Origin: Campylobacteraceae bacterium
Lineage (GTDB): Bacteria > Campylobacterota > Campylobacteria > Campylobacterales > Campylobacteraceae
Direction: 5' to 3'
Length of the DNA: 64,000 nucleotides
NCBI GenBank assembly: GCA_031266555.1
Contig: JAISAU010000020.1
Location: forward strand, 1 to 64,000
In this document: in pieces, positions 14,887-21,860 of the stretch
Numbering within the stretch: position 1 is the stretch's first letter
Layout: each line of letters starts with the position of its first letter
The notes under the pieces: generated by a model
Told to the model about the DNA's origin: nothing
Database searches by the model: none
The model's input: the letters and a program-made list of their open reading frames with translations, nothing else
Made by a program: the position numbers and the translations under genes

Positions 14887-16797
14887 ATGAATTTCTTTGA
14901 ACAACAAAAAAGAGCCGAAAAAAATTCAAAACTTTTAATCGCGCTCTTTTTCGCAGGCGTTATAGGAGTTTGCTTATGTGTAAGCGGCGCTTTGTTCGCT
15001 ATAGTATCGTATGGCGAGACTAATGCTGATTATCATTCGTCCATAATTTCGCGATACGGCTTTTTTAAAGTCACCGTTTTACCGTTTTTGGTCACTTTGC
15101 TGATAATATTTTTTGCTTCAATTTATAAAATAAGCAGCTTATCAAAAGGCGGAGGCGCCCTTATAGCTCAATCTTTGGGCGGCGAAAGAGTCTTTAGGAA
15201 AAGTGCGAATACAAATGAAATAATGCTTTTAAACATCGTTGAAGAGATGTCTATAGCTTCAGGCGTGCCAGTTCCTCCTGTTTATATCTTGGAAGACGAG
15301 AGCATAAACGCTTTTGCCGCAGGTCTTGGATATGACGACGCGGTTATAGGGGTCACGAGAGGAGCGGTCACATATTTAGATAGAGACGAACTTCAAGGAG
15401 TTATCGCCCACGAGTTTAGTCATATATTTAACGGCGATATGAAGTTAAATATTCGTTCGATAGGTATCTTAAACGGTATTTTATTTATAAGCTTAATAGG
15501 CAAATTTATATTAAGGTCGCTTGCTAATTCAAAAAGCGTTTCAAGAGGAAATAAAAAAAACAATGGAGCGGCGGTATTAATGGTAATAGGTATCGCCTTA
15601 TATATTATAGGACTTATAGGGGTATTTTTCGGTAATCTGATAAAAGCGGCGATAAATAGACAGCGCGAATACTTAGCCGACGCTTCGGCAGTACAGTTTA
15701 CAAGACTTCCTTCGGGTCTTGCGAATGCGCTTAAAAAAATAGGCGGTAGCGATTCGATTATCAATTCGGCAAATGCAAATGAATTCAGTCATCTATACTT
15801 CTCAAAAGGCATCAAAAGTTTCCTTTTCAGCACTCACCCTCAGTTAGATGAAAGAATCAAAGCTATACAACCCAATTGGAACGGGCAATATATAACTCCA
15901 AAACCAATAACTTATAGCGGTAAAGAGATTCAAAAAACAGAAGAAAAGAAAAAAGAAAAAATTGTAAAAACTATAACGACAGCCGCGATTTTAAATGAAA
16001 TTAACAATATAGGCACCATAACTTACGAAAAACTGAATACGGCAAATAAAAAAATAGATAAAATTCCTCAACTTTTATATGACAGTACGGCGGATACTCT
16101 TTTGGCGCAATTTATTATCTTTATTCTTCTTTTGGATAAAGACGAGAAGATACAAAAATTGCAAATTGAGATAATAGCACGAGACTTTTTTACATCGGAC
16201 AATGAAGGGGCTTTGGAAAAATTTGAAAATATAAAATCGGAATTTAAAAATATTTCGCGCAATATTTTTCTAAATCTCATTCAAATTAGTATGCCGACTC
16301 TAAAAACGCTCTCAAAAGAACAATATTTAAAATTCAAAAATACAATAATCAATCTCATTGAAGCCGATAAAAATGTGTCTTGGTTTGAGCTCAATCTAAA
16401 ATATCTGGTACTTTATCCGCTTGACGTCGCATTTAGAATTAAAAAAATCCCGCATGAAATTCATTATGCGATAAGAGCTATAAAATTTGAAACGGAAATT
16501 ATACTCTCTGCGATTACTTATAGTCAATTTTTAAATGACGACAAAGCGAATGAAACATTCATAAAAACAGTGAAGACTTTCGGCACAACCGCGCTAAAAT
16601 ACGTACCGTCCAAAGATATCTCTTTAATATCGATTGAAAACGCATATTATGAAATACAAAAAGCAAAACCGCTTATTAGAAAAAAAGTGCTTGAAATGGC
16701 TATATCGTGTCTAAAAGACGACGGTCATCTCTCAGAACAAGATATAGAGACTATTCACGCTTTATGCGCGCTTTTGCATTTGCCTATAAGTATATAA
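14887..16797 (+). CDS. Membrane M48 family zinc metallopeptidase (HtpX-like), copy 2
   Basis: This 636-aa protein is a clear paralogue of the gene at 12169. It shares MNF-EQ at the N-terminus, two membrane helices (about 14-42 and 62-80), HEFSH at 175-179, and the third zinc ligand in QREYLADASAVQF. The C-terminal helical extension is the same, including YPLD and the I-H-A-L-x-x-x-L-H-L-P-x end. Similarity runs end to end, so it reflects duplication of the whole gene rather than domain sharing. It starts 6 bp after lemA and is probably co-translated with it. Substrates are unknown; membrane protein quality control is inferred from the family. Confidence 0.88.
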   Translation: MNFFEQQKRAEKNSKLLIALFFAGVIGVCLCVSGALFAIVSYGETNADYHSSIISRYGFFKVTVLPFLVTLLIIFFASIYKISSLSKGGGALIAQSLGGERVFRKSANTNEIMLLNIVEEMSIASGVPVPPVYILEDESINAFAAGLGYDDAVIGVTRGAVTYLDRDELQGVIAHEFSHIFNGDMKLNIRSIGILNGILFISLIGKFILRSLANSKSVSRGNKKNNGAAVLMVIGIALYIIGLIGVFFGNLIKAAINRQREYLADASAVQFTRLPSGLANALKKIGGSDSIINSANANEFSHLYFSKGIKSFLFSTHPQLDERIKAIQPNWNGQYITPKPITYSGKEIQKTEEKKKEKIVKTITTAAILNEINNIGTITYEKLNTANKKIDKIPQLLYDSTADTLLAQFIIFILLLDKDEKIQKLQIEIIARDFFTSDNEGALEKFENIKSEFKNISRNIFLNLIQISMPTLKTLSKEQYLKFKNTIINLIEADKNVSWFELNLKYLVLYPLDVAFRIKKIPHEIHYAIRAIKFETEIILSAITYSQFLNDDKANETFIKTVKTFGTTALKYVPSKDISLISIENAYYEIQKAKPLIRKKVLEMAISCLKDDGHLSEQDIETIHALCALLHLPISI

Positions 16798-16877: not shown

Positions 16878-17166
16878 GTTGAATTGATACAAGTGTTGTA
16901 TTGAAATAGAATTAATTCGTAAATATCTTTAGAGACTATCATAGTTGAACAGAAACAAAGGTTGTTTGAAATGGTTTTCTGTAATCTACTACATGTAGCG
17001 GCGTTGTAGGTTGAATGAAAGCAAGCGTCGTGTTGAGATGGATAAGGATAATACCTTCAAAGTTTGCCGATTATCAAATATGTAAATACTGTATTGAAAT
17101 CTTCCTTTGGTTGTCATATTTAAAATTTTATTTTGAAGTGAACTGAAAAAAGCATTGTATTAAAAC
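16878..17166 (+). repeat. Degenerate CRISPR-like repeats, 66-bp period
   Basis: Three related 30-bp units begin at 16878, 16944 and 17010, exactly 66 bp apart. They share GTTGAA at the start, a central CAAG/CAAA, and TTGAAAT (or TTGAGAT) at the end. Copy 1 matches copy 2 at 24 of 30 positions and copy 3 at 22 of 30. Two partial units end with ATTGAAAT at 17100 and ATTAAAAC at 17166, again 66 bp apart. A 30-bp repeat plus 36-bp spacer, with an ATTGAAAC-like 3' end, is the layout of type I-B/III CRISPR arrays. The repeats are too divergent for a live array and no cas gene is present, so I read it as a decayed remnant. Confidence 0.4.
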
Positions 17167-17482
17167 GGTTGGGTTTACTTCGCAAACATTTTCCTCTTTA
17201 TTTGTTGGCAAGCAATCATTATGATACTTTTGATATTTACTATTTAATTTTTAAAAATAGCGATGAATTCGTCATTGGTAGCTTTTTAGCATTACAAGTA
17301 TTTGCGATTTGAAAGTTTAAGATTTCTGCTCTTTCTTGATACATTGTGACTTTCTAAAATTCTTAAAATTTATCCGAAAACTTATTAAAAGTATTGATAG
17401 TGCGTAATTTGTACGATTTTTGGACGCTAAATCACAACAGTTGTAAAATATAGCCAAGAAACACAACACGAACTTAACGACC

Positions 17483-17505
17483 AAGGAACTTTTTGGTTCC
17501 TTTTT
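17483..17505 (+). terminator. Intrinsic terminator-like hairpin in the gap
   Basis: AAGGAAC (17483-17489) pairs with GTTCCTT (17496-17502) around a TTTTTG loop, followed by T residues. No recognised gene lies directly upstream on the plus strand, so it may end a small RNA or be a relic. Confidence 0.45.
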
Positions 17506-17799
17506 ATATGTATCATTCTCGAACCGCGCCTTTTTCTCTCCGTACTGTTACTAATTTTTGCACTCTCATTCCATCACTTTTTCCAGTATTTCACCAAAAA
17601 GCTTATGCTCGGTTGTCTGATATTCTTTGATTTTGTGTAGCTATAAGATTATTGCTAAATAGATACAAAGAATACTGAAATTTCTATATCTAACTTATTG
17701 CCTACCAAAAACAAAGATTGCGTTAGAACTCAAACGCCATTGTGTTATTTTTTGCTACTGCTGTGGATAAGCGTTGTACTAGAATATGTTTTTGTTGTA

Positions 17800-17910: not shown

Positions 17911-17938
17911 AACAAAAAGAGCTTACGCTCTTTTTGTT
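17911..17938 (-). terminator. Intrinsic terminator of the TonB receptor gene
   Basis: AACAAAAAGAGC and GCTCTTTTTGTT form a perfect 12-bp stem with a 4-nt loop, overlapping the stop codon of the receptor. It has A and T tracts on both sides and so could work in both directions. Confidence 0.8.
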
Positions 17939-19958
17939 AAAAATTGGAATGAAAACCTACAGTTACTCTTCTGCCGTCTATATGCTTTCCAAACGACGCC
18001 GCGGTTATCTCTTTATTAAATACGTTATAAACTCCAGCGCCCACTTTTAGCCTATCGGTTAGTACATAGTTAACTCCCAAATCAACCAAAGTATAAGCTT
18101 TATTCGTTTGAGTATTATCAGACCTCAAAGAACCGTAAAAATCAGCTTTACCTCTATAATTTGCCTGCGTCCAAGCGCTAAATTTGTCGTTTGCAATATA
18201 CTCGAGTCCCAAACTCGCTAAAGTTTTTGGAGTATCATTGAGCGGCAAACCTTTATAGTCGCCGGTTTTTTGATTGCTCTTTTGATATGTATAACTTCCC
18301 GTGAGTATTAAACTTGACAAAACGCTATATTTTAAACTAAGTTCAGCGCCGTACAACTCAGCTTTATCAACATTTTTATAAATTGATATAAAGTCAAAAT
18401 CCTCTCCGTTGTAATGGCAGCCAAGCGAACCCGAAGGACCTTGACAATCTCTAAATTCCGCGATTTTATCTTTAAAATCCGAATAAAAAACCGTCAAACC
18501 CGCATTTAAACCTATAGCTTTATCGTCATAAGACGTTCCGATTTCATAATTTAGACTTTTTTCAGGATCCAAATCAGGGTTTCCTACCATAACGCCGGCA
18601 CTAACGCCTCCGCCGGTAACTCCGCCGAAATCATCAGCGGATTGCCTTAAGCTCGGTTGTTTATAACCGGTTGATATGCCGCCTTTTACGACCACTTCAT
18701 CCGTTAAATGTAAAACCGCGTATAATCTTGGATTGATATAATTTCCGAACTTTTCGTCTTTGTTATATCTAACTCCCGCCGTAAGCGCGAAGTTGTCAAA
18801 TATACTCCATTCATCTTCCGCGAAAAGCGCGAATTGCCACTTTTTCATAGTAACCGGAATATTCCCGCCCAGCGAATTAGTTACCTTATCCTCCAACTTC
18901 TCTTTTTTGTACTGAGCGCCAAGTGAGAGCGCGTTTGAATCAAAAAAGTATGTAGCTTTGCTATTTAACGTCAACACATCGTAAAAAATACCAGTGTCAT
19001 TTCCTCTTTTTCTATTGTTATACGTGCTCATATATTGCGCGAAACTATCCACGACCAATTCATCGTACTTCGCGTTATGTCCCAACGACCAAGTATCTTT
19101 CACAGCCAAATTCTCAGATAAAGATGAAGTGAGCGCGACTGATTTTCCTGGCGTTGAAACCCTTTGCTGTTTTGAGTAATCATAGCCCAAATATACGTCG
19201 TTATTTTCATTAAGAGCCAAAACCAATTTAGTACCGATTTGTCTTCTTTTAAAATCAGGATTAGGTGCAGAACTTTTGCCCCCCCCTTGAATTTCGCTCT
19301 CGTCAAGCCCTAAAAAAGAACCGTAAGTTTGCAAAGACAAGATATCGCTTACAATGGGACCGGACAGATAAAAATTTGTCTGATATCCGTCATTGCTGAC
19401 GTCATTAAATGATTTTGTATACTCCGCGCCTACTGTTCCAGACCAAACGTTCGGCACTCTTTTGGTAATGATATTTACAACTCCGCCCATCGCTTCCGAA
19501 CCATAAAGAGAAGACATAGGACCTCTTACAACTTCTATTCTTTCTATCGCTGAAACCGGCGGTAAAGAGTTTGTGGCTATTCCGCCCGCCATACCGTTTG
19601 GACTATGCGCCTCGTTTCCGGACATAGGTTTTCCATCGACCAGATAAAGAGTATAGCTGCTGCTCATACCGCGAATAGACACGTCTTTAAAAACGCTTCC
19701 TGATTCTATATAAACTCCGGGAACATTTTTAAGCACATCCGTCAAATCTTGTTCCGACCTTTTTTCCAGCTCCTCTTTCGTGATGACAAACACGCTAGCC
19801 GGCGCGTCGGCTATGTTTTGTTCATAACCCGCGGCACTAACAACTTTTATCTCGTCTAACTTGACCGTTTTATTTGTTTCGTCATCAGCATAGACTAATG
19901 AAGTCAAACAAACCAGAGCGGCAAAAGCGCTGCAAACTACCCTTTCTTTCCTTTTCAT
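17937..19958 (-). CDS. TonB-dependent outer-membrane receptor, catecholate siderophore type
   Basis: The 673-aa protein has a signal peptide (MKRKERVVCSAF... to about residue 25), a TonB box region (VKLDEIKVVSA), the plug domain and a 22-strand barrel ending in phenylalanine. The plug contains ASVFVITKEELE, DVLKNVPGV, IRG, VDGKP, IERIEVVRGPMSSLYGSEA and GGVVNIITK. The overall look is of the FepA/CfrA/CirA group, which imports ferric catecholate siderophores, though the ligand cannot be read from sequence. I choose the ATG at 19958 because TAGGAG lies 6 bp before it; the ATG at 19982 lacks a ribosome site. Fur-box-like sites upstream suggest iron repression. No TonB/ExbBD or periplasmic transporter gene is adjacent. 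Confidence 0.92.
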   Translation of the reverse strand: MKRKERVVCSAFAALVCLTSLVYADDETNKTVKLDEIKVVSAAGYEQNIADAPASVFVITKEELEKRSEQDLTDVLKNVPGVYIESGSVFKDVSIRGMSSSYTLYLVDGKPMSGNEAHSPNGMAGGIATNSLPPVSAIERIEVVRGPMSSLYGSEAMGGVVNIITKRVPNVWSGTVGAEYTKSFNDVSNDGYQTNFYLSGPIVSDILSLQTYGSFLGLDESEIQGGGKSSAPNPDFKRRQIGTKLVLALNENNDVYLGYDYSKQQRVSTPGKSVALTSSLSENLAVKDTWSLGHNAKYDELVVDSFAQYMSTYNNRKRGNDTGIFYDVLTLNSKATYFFDSNALSLGAQYKKEKLEDKVTNSLGGNIPVTMKKWQFALFAEDEWSIFDNFALTAGVRYNKDEKFGNYINPRLYAVLHLTDEVVVKGGISTGYKQPSLRQSADDFGGVTGGGVSAGVMVGNPDLDPEKSLNYEIGTSYDDKAIGLNAGLTVFYSDFKDKIAEFRDCQGPSGSLGCHYNGEDFDFISIYKNVDKAELYGAELSLKYSVLSSLILTGSYTYQKSNQKTGDYKGLPLNDTPKTLASLGLEYIANDKFSAWTQANYRGKADFYGSLRSDNTQTNKAYTLVDLGVNYVLTDRLKVGAGVYNVFNKEITAASFGKHIDGRRVTVGFHSNF

Positions 19959-19988
19959 TTTTACTCCTAATGAAATTTTCATAATTTT

Positions 19989-20530: not shown

Positions 20531-20901
20531 TACATGTAGCCGCTTTCATATAATAATATTATCCGCTTACATGTAAAAATATATCACGATATTTTTCAAC
20601 CCAATTTCTTACATGTAAAAAGAATTGAGACCTCAAACTATTTTTGTCGTTAATGTCTAAAATTTTTTACATGTACGATATAGTTAAAACAGATAAAATA
20701 AAACCGTACATGTATAGCTCTACTCAATTTTATCACTTTGAAAAGTAAGTTTTTAAATAATATACAAAATAAGTTTCGCGGTTATGTTAGCGCTAGTTTT
20801 ACATGTAAAAAGATTATGAAAACCATAAAAATATTTCTATCATATTATGTATTTCATAAGATGTAACTTTTCGATATCGTTATAATTTTTCCCTACATGT
20901 A
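20531..20901. repeat. Cluster of seven TACATGTA palindromes in 371 bp
   Basis: Exact copies start at 20531, 20568, 20610, 20668, 20707, 20800 and 20894, most within TTACATGTA. The flanks differ, so this is not a tandem array but repeated occurrence of the 8-mer. Spacing is 37, 42, 58, 39, 93 and 94 bp. The cluster lies in gene-free DNA between the receptor and trpC. Confidence 0.85.
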
Positions 20902-21074: not shown

Positions 21075-21860
21075 TTAAACTTTTTTCATCTCTCGCACCG
21101 CTAATCCAACATCGTTTTGACGCATAAAATGTTCTCCTATCAAAAAAGCGTCAACGCCAATAGAAGATAAATTTACTATTGTCTCTTTGTTATTAAGCCC
21201 GCTTTCAGCTACTATAATTTTATCTTTAGGAATGAGCGGCAAAAGCTTTTGGCTTAAACTCATATCCATATCAAAAGTTTCCAAATTTCTATGATTTATA
21301 CCTATAATATTGCCGCCTGCCGATACGGCTTTTAATAAATCCGTTTTATCGTGTACTTCCACTAAAACTTCCATTCCAAGATTTACAGCAAAAGACAGCA
21401 AAGCGAAAAGCTTTTTTTTACTCAAAACTTTCGCTATCAAAAGAATAAAATCCGCTCCGTACATGTACGCTTCTAAGATTTGATACTCGTCGATTATAAA
21501 ATCTTTCCTCAAAAGCGGCGTTGGAACATATCGTCTAATTTGAGCCAAATACTCCAAGTTGCCTTTAAAAAAATGCGGTTCCGTTAAAACAGAAAGCGCG
21601 TCCGCTCCGCCCTCTTTATAGCTTTGCGCTATAGCTATCGGATCAAAATCATCTCTGATAACTCCTTTGCTAGGACTTGCCTTCTTAACTTCAGCGATAA
21701 TACGGTAAGGATTTTCTTTTGTGGAACGCAAGTATGGTTTTACATCGCGCGGAACGAGATTATTATAAGAAAGACTTCTGCCAAGCCATTCTATGGGAAA
21801 CTCTTTTTTGCGCTTTTTCAGATCCTCTTCGGTTTGTTTTATTATCTCGTCTAATATCAT
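21075..21860 (-). CDS. trpC: Indole-3-glycerol phosphate synthase
   Basis: TrpC closes the indole ring in tryptophan synthesis, acting on carboxyphenylamino-deoxyribulose phosphate. The 261-aa TIM barrel has [12 protein letters not shown] (56-66) with catalytic Glu/Lys. It also has the [15 protein letters not shown] block, [30 protein letters not shown] and [12 protein letters not shown] at the phosphate-binding end. It stands apart from other trp genes. Its ATG overlaps the stop of the TPR gene by the ATGA pattern, so the two are translationally coupled. Confidence 0.95.

Follow-up and report, generated by a model that had tools for sequence, protein, structure and literature searches.

A degenerate type I-B CRISPR mini-array between convergent genes of a Campylobacteraceae bacterium, and its dispersed kin

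Repeat-like units at mostly regular intervals lie at positions 16878 to 17166 of the window, the whole stretch of 64,000 nucleotides analysed here, between a peptidase gene and a TonB-dependent receptor gene. The locus raises the question of whether these units are the remains of a CRISPR array and, if so, whether an array in such a place could still supply guides or is a drifting relic.

Repeat units, repeat type and insertion site

The focal array consists of five repeat units and four spacers on the + strand. Unit 1 (16878..16907) shares 28 of its 30 positions with GTTGAACTGAAACAAGTGTTGTATTGAAAT, the repeat that an intact array elsewhere in this genome carries, and is followed by a spacer of 36 nt (16908..16943). 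Unit 2 (16944..16972) has lost one base and measures 29 nt; the 37-nt spacer behind it (16973..17009) carries a genome-wide motif, TACATGTA. Unit 3 (17010..17039) starts 66 bp after the start of unit 2, and spacer 3 (17040..17070) has about 31 nt, its end being approximate where it meets the badly worn unit 4. The latter (17071..17100) is recognisable by eye and only in its 3' part, and spacer 4 (17101..17136, 36 nt) leads to the last unit (17137..17166), a repeat match with seven mismatches in 30. The spacers (36, 37, about 31 and 36 nt) have no sequence in common, as expected of the unique spacers of uniform length in a CRISPR array. The initial annotation had described a decayed CRISPR-like array with three 30-bp units and an exact 66-bp period. 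The unit starts are in fact 66, 66, 61 and 66 bp apart, so that the period holds for three of the four steps and fails between units 3 and 4, and the length of 30 nt applies to units 1 and 3 and not to unit 2. The two partial units ending at 17100 and 17166 do lie 66 bp apart, as had been proposed.

Ungapped comparison with the intact repeat gave 2, 8, 8 and 7 mismatches of 30 for units 1, 2, 3 and 5, and the match of unit 2 improves when its one-base deletion is allowed. When both strands of the 64-kb window were searched with the intact repeat, there were four matches with at most 9 mismatches, all of them within the focal array. In 200 dinucleotide-preserving shuffles the mean was 0.01 matches with at most 8 mismatches, and no shuffle held one with fewer than 8. 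The expectation that automated finders would miss the array was borne out by Tandem Repeats Finder, which did not report it. Rfam has no family at gathering score for the region, and its only CRISPR match there, CRISPR-DR3, was rejected as sub-threshold and on the opposite strand.

The matching array is intact, has 77 units with a period of about 66 bp, and lies at C21:187339-192407 of the window's genome (G000). From this match, we conclude that the focal units derive from the CRISPR repeat of their own genome and have degenerated, which upholds the proposal of a decayed array. The handle had been taken to point to type I-B or III, and the genomes of relatives agree with the former: the repeat type is found in genomes with I-B operons, directly adjoins the operon in G008, and accompanies effector modules of two kinds, one in G008 and another in G004. 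It thus belongs to the I-B systems of the genus, and the focal units, regularly spaced and built from their genome's own repeat, have what is expected of a type I-B array. No I-B cas6 or cas7 was found in G000 (a MAG, 75% complete) with the queries used, and its main array ends about 90 bases or less from the end of the contig. In addition, G000 carries a type V-A locus, comprising cas12a with cas1 and cas2. The relatives, retrieved through the htpX-like gene, are MAGs that bear the title Campylobacteraceae bacterium; going by their isolate names and accession prefixes, they would come from termite guts, and the bacterium of the window is probably a termite-gut one too.

That the units are no CRISPR at all, being chance matches or an unrelated tandem or dispersed repeat, is an idea invited by the other dispersed motifs in which the local intergenic DNA is rich. 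It is refuted by the intact array with its matching repeat, and the unit spacing, the unique spacers and the shuffle test likewise speak against it; we regard its probability as negligible. A unit conserved in relatives as a repeat unrelated to CRISPR was also considered and rejected, since the units are absent from the focal site in ten relatives.

The array lies within the 1139-bp gap between two genes. Upstream and in the same direction is a gene for an M48 peptidase of the HtpX-like kind (14887..16797, + strand), preceded by lemA; downstream and convergent is the TonB-dependent receptor gene (17937..19982, - strand). These are its neighbours, and no cas genes lie beside it. The flank of the array does not resemble the leader found at true arrays of G013 and G001, and the array does not combine a leader with an intact first repeat, on which the capacity to acquire spacers depends. 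The first terminator-like site on the + strand after the peptidase gene is at 17483..17502, identified by consensus match only; because none precedes it, read-through from the peptidase gene is plausible. Among 11 related loci scanned, 10 of which have DNA extending past the peptidase gene, no repeat-like units were found, and in seven relatives a gene resembling that of the TonB receptor follows within a few hundred bp (by eye). An intact counterpart at the same locus, for which the initial annotation had suggested a search among relatives, was thus not present; since ten of them have no array there, the focal array would most simply be a lineage-specific addition. Our best reading is that it is an ectopic, leaderless and degenerate type I-B mini-array in an enlarged intergenic region between convergent genes.

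Dispersed mini-arrays and the wear of their repeats

The focal array, which the initial annotation had treated singly, is one of about ten dispersed leaderless mini-arrays that a sequence model of the repeat detected in G000. They lie on C11 (the focal one), C12, C13 (two), C17 (two), C21 (two), C23 and C24, those at C13:247325 and C21:120924 being weak taken alone; a reversed-pattern control in the same genome gave 0 clusters. By hand count, about 30 clusters at E-values up to 0.01 are present in G006, a 99% complete genome of the same genus, and several each in G013, G001, G002 and G011. As the model was trained on some of the units that it scored, its E-values for those units are favourable, whereas the test with the intact repeat is not circular. 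Most clusters are intergenic. Gaps between convergent genes hold seven of nine examined clusters of G000, compared with 5 of the 53 junctions in the window being of this kind. In nine mini-arrays of G006 (L101, L102, L103, L106, L108, L109, L114, L116 and L118), a short trailer, TTTATTACTATAATC or close to it, comes after the last repeat and runs into a dispersed CGTCATTGCGAGGAG repeat; the spacers of these arrays differ.

Wear of the units was analysed in 35 mini-arrays of 2 to 7 units each from G000, G006 and G013. Identity to the repeat of the species was scored in the 5' 10 nt, the middle 12 nt and the 3' 8 nt, with the same unit-detection rule at both array ends. The values in this order were 0.59, 0.86 and 0.95 for first units, 0.88, 0.95 and 0.93 for internal units, and 0.93, 0.89 and 0.70 for last units. 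First units have therefore kept the hairpin and the 3' handle and lost the 5' end, and last units have kept the 5' part and lost the handle. When the first and last labels were permuted, none of 20,000 permutations reached the observed difference, and this effect should even be diluted by some split clusters that had entered as separate arrays. The wear is graded rather than sharp, and the worn parts are more repeat-like than nearby DNA, by a figure somewhat inflated by the choice of the best of several offsets. The wear of the mini-arrays is thus non-random, in that the parts required for crRNA production are the parts kept. The focal array is more worn than most mini-arrays, and the pattern of the class is weak in it alone, its first unit being nearly complete.

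The hairpin itself also carries a signal. At pair 13-21, a double change from C-G to T-A occurs in 5 distinct units, T-G in 9, and a broken pair in 7, and the compensation has a permutation value of 0.002, with kinship among the units ignored. This covariation resides mainly in one base pair and comes from related units.

A serious rival is that the mini-arrays are passive relics: pieces of earlier I-B arrays that recombination or transfer has scattered and that now drift without a function, their worn outer edges marking breakpoints inside terminal repeats. We give it a considerable probability, if below an even one. It is in keeping with the strong degradation of the focal units, and with one array that cuts into an open reading frame, its junction lying inside the first unit. 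The preference for convergent gaps would also fit simple tolerance of insertions. The relic explanation accounts less well for first units in which the hairpin (0.86) and the handle (0.95) are preserved beside worn 5' ends, for the graded course of the wear, and for the compensatory changes at the hairpin pair. Insertion of copies of Cas6-processed crRNAs was considered as another origin and is disfavoured, because first units retain the hairpin upstream of the cut site.

Spacers, effector genes and possible use as guides

The spacers of the focal array, which the initial annotation had proposed to compare with phage and plasmid DNA, gave no convincing or significant match in their own genome, relatives, phages or plasmids, in searches that would miss short partial self-matches. 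The motif common to spacer 2 and the upstream flank was considered as a sign of self-targeting and rejected, since it is explained by the genome-wide TACATGTA motif. This palindrome occurs 45 times in the window against 0.67 times expected from dinucleotide shuffles, for example at 106, 16825, 16990, 17810, 20531-20894 and 59444, with seven occurrences within 20531-20901. In the main array of G000 (L063), a stretch of about one spacer has matches of about 89-94% in the cytosine methylase genes of many phages. The mini-arrays of G000 and this main array have no spacers in common, the one overlap being of 13 nt.

One pair of mini-arrays bears on the history of such segments. L070 of G000 and L076 of G004 have two consecutive spacers with their repeats in common, in different surroundings; the common segment is 84% identical over 147 bp, whereas for a comparison gene (window 21075-21860, judged trpC-like from its sequence) identity between these genomes is 73%. 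From this one pair, segments would seem to relocate, possibly through transfer between species, or to stand under constraint. The spacers of the pair have diverged about as far as its repeats, which drift would produce as well and which is a further point for passive relics. The conserved spacer has no convincing match in IMG/VR, and the exact intact repeat is absent from the IMG/VR contigs. At the site downstream of typA, arrays are present in G001, G008 and G006 with unrelated spacers, and that of G008 has a near-perfect internal run of repeats between worn terminal units. It is our guess that leaderless arrays gained spacers by recombination with a main array.

In G006, cas3, cas5, cas7 and cas8b of type I-B are open frames in a near-complete effector operon, and cas6 is split over two contig ends. 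The genome search found no cas1 there; the shortest contigs seen were just over 3 kb, so that cas1 or a long array may be missing from the assembly. In the I-B operons of the genus, degenerate repeat-like pairs were seen by eye divergent from cas6, resembling CreR: L080 (about 4713), L148 (5020-5105), L177, L176 (about 250), L186 and L180. Several of them have a similar guide start, ATGATTTTTG in some.

Given the effector genes of G006 and these CreR-like pairs, crRNA-like use is the best single reading of the mini-arrays, and we see an even chance that the focal locus and its kin are ectopic crRNA-producing mini-arrays that are now unable to acquire spacers. Transcription of the lemA-htpX genes would read through into the focal array, Cas6 acting in trans would cleave the hairpins of the transcript, and the resulting crRNA-like RNAs would load the I-B effector. 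RNAs from the mini-arrays would begin with the 5' end AUUGAAAU and have their 3' end at the next hairpin. With neither a leader nor an intact first repeat, the focal array could presumably gain no further spacers, and array segments would relocate within and between species, as the one pair observed indicates. A wider proposal, which we put forward tentatively and hold to be rather doubtful, is that the genus keeps part of its I-B guide repertoire in 10-30 leaderless, often multi-guide mini-arrays between ordinary genes, selected for Cas6 processing and exchanged between species. In G006, such mini-arrays might then form the chief or even the sole source of I-B guides for an effector that has no adaptation module.

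The guides might instead be regulatory, each steering the I-B effector to a fixed promoter of its own genome, as CreA and CreR do. The wear of the repeats is as in creA genes, and the CreR-like pairs are in line with such a role. Local targeting, however, was not evident: among 76 mini-array spacers, seed matches near the arrays were in no excess over other loci, a test that a single rare case could escape. Local promoter targeting on the CreA model was rejected for this reason, and a few apparent long local matches were rejected as artefacts of arrays split into two clusters. The unrelated spacers in three species at the typA site, the several units per array with no cas genes alongside, and the focal spacers, for which the own-genome searches gave no significant match, also argue against fixed regulatory targets, and we consider this explanation unlikely.

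Relation to known systems and an adjacent dispersed element

For creA of the CreTA system, it is reported that the 8-nt 5' handle comes from the first repeat, while the second retains its 5' part and contributes the 22-nt 3' handle (PMC8501985, PMC9458426). As a class, the mini-arrays resemble creA in being ectopic and leaderless, in the divergent wear of their flanking repeats and in their type I-B context. creA itself, however, comprises a single guide with one or two repeats and adjoins a toxin and cas genes (PMC8501985, PMC9458426), whereas the mini-arrays mostly have 2-6 units with several guides, occupy about 10-30 loci at which neither a toxin nor cas genes were identified as linked, and show no excess of local targets. 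CreR provides a precedent for a crRNA-like RNA without a toxin, but it acts on a cas promoter (PMC12737573), while the dispersed mini-arrays lie elsewhere and have different spacers. Orphan or leaderless arrays likewise have no adjacent cas genes and possibly use Cas proteins in trans (PMC8616872); the mini-arrays differ from them in the many short arrays per genome and the patterned wear of terminal repeats. Solitary repeat units and mini-arrays of phages, and Racrs, are likewise CRISPR-like repeats that stand alone and would rely on the Cas proteins of the host (PMC8616872, PMC10651486), but the arrays described here are chromosomal and mostly lie between ordinary genes.

Degenerate ectopic repeats have so far mainly been described as genes for one guide each, linked to a toxin or to a cas promoter, and our literature search, with most subscription journals outside it, found nothing comparable on dispersed or relic arrays; an earlier description may exist. 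If the mini-arrays do produce guides, a CRISPR effector could be served by guides encoded all over the chromosome, and a sizeable part of the guide repertoire would escape array finders. If they are relics only, they form a large natural series for measuring the relocation and decay of CRISPR arrays.

A dispersed element of about 250-300 bp adjoins the focal array at window 17205-17510, with further copies at L153 8846-9160, L105 3174-3475, L077 8036-8365 and L181 5900-6200. The bodies of the copies are similar and end near GTTGTAAAATA; behind the body, each copy has an 8-11-mer of its own, repeated three or four times (for example AACTGACA, AATGGACA, AGAAAGGAACA and AAGTTACAT), and in some an inverted 8-11-mer forms a hairpin. 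One copy adjoins an orphan V-A array in G011. The element was considered as a general type V-A leader and rejected; we take it for a separate dispersed element, because copies truncate other genes, a lipoprotein paralog (G004) and cas8b (G013), and because it was not found at the other V-A arrays examined. Type V-A repeats (AATTTCTACTNTTGTAGAT) occur on several contigs, among them G000:C8, C19, C20 and C22, G004:C5, C25 and C31, and G008:C28 and C55; in G004 they are single copies.
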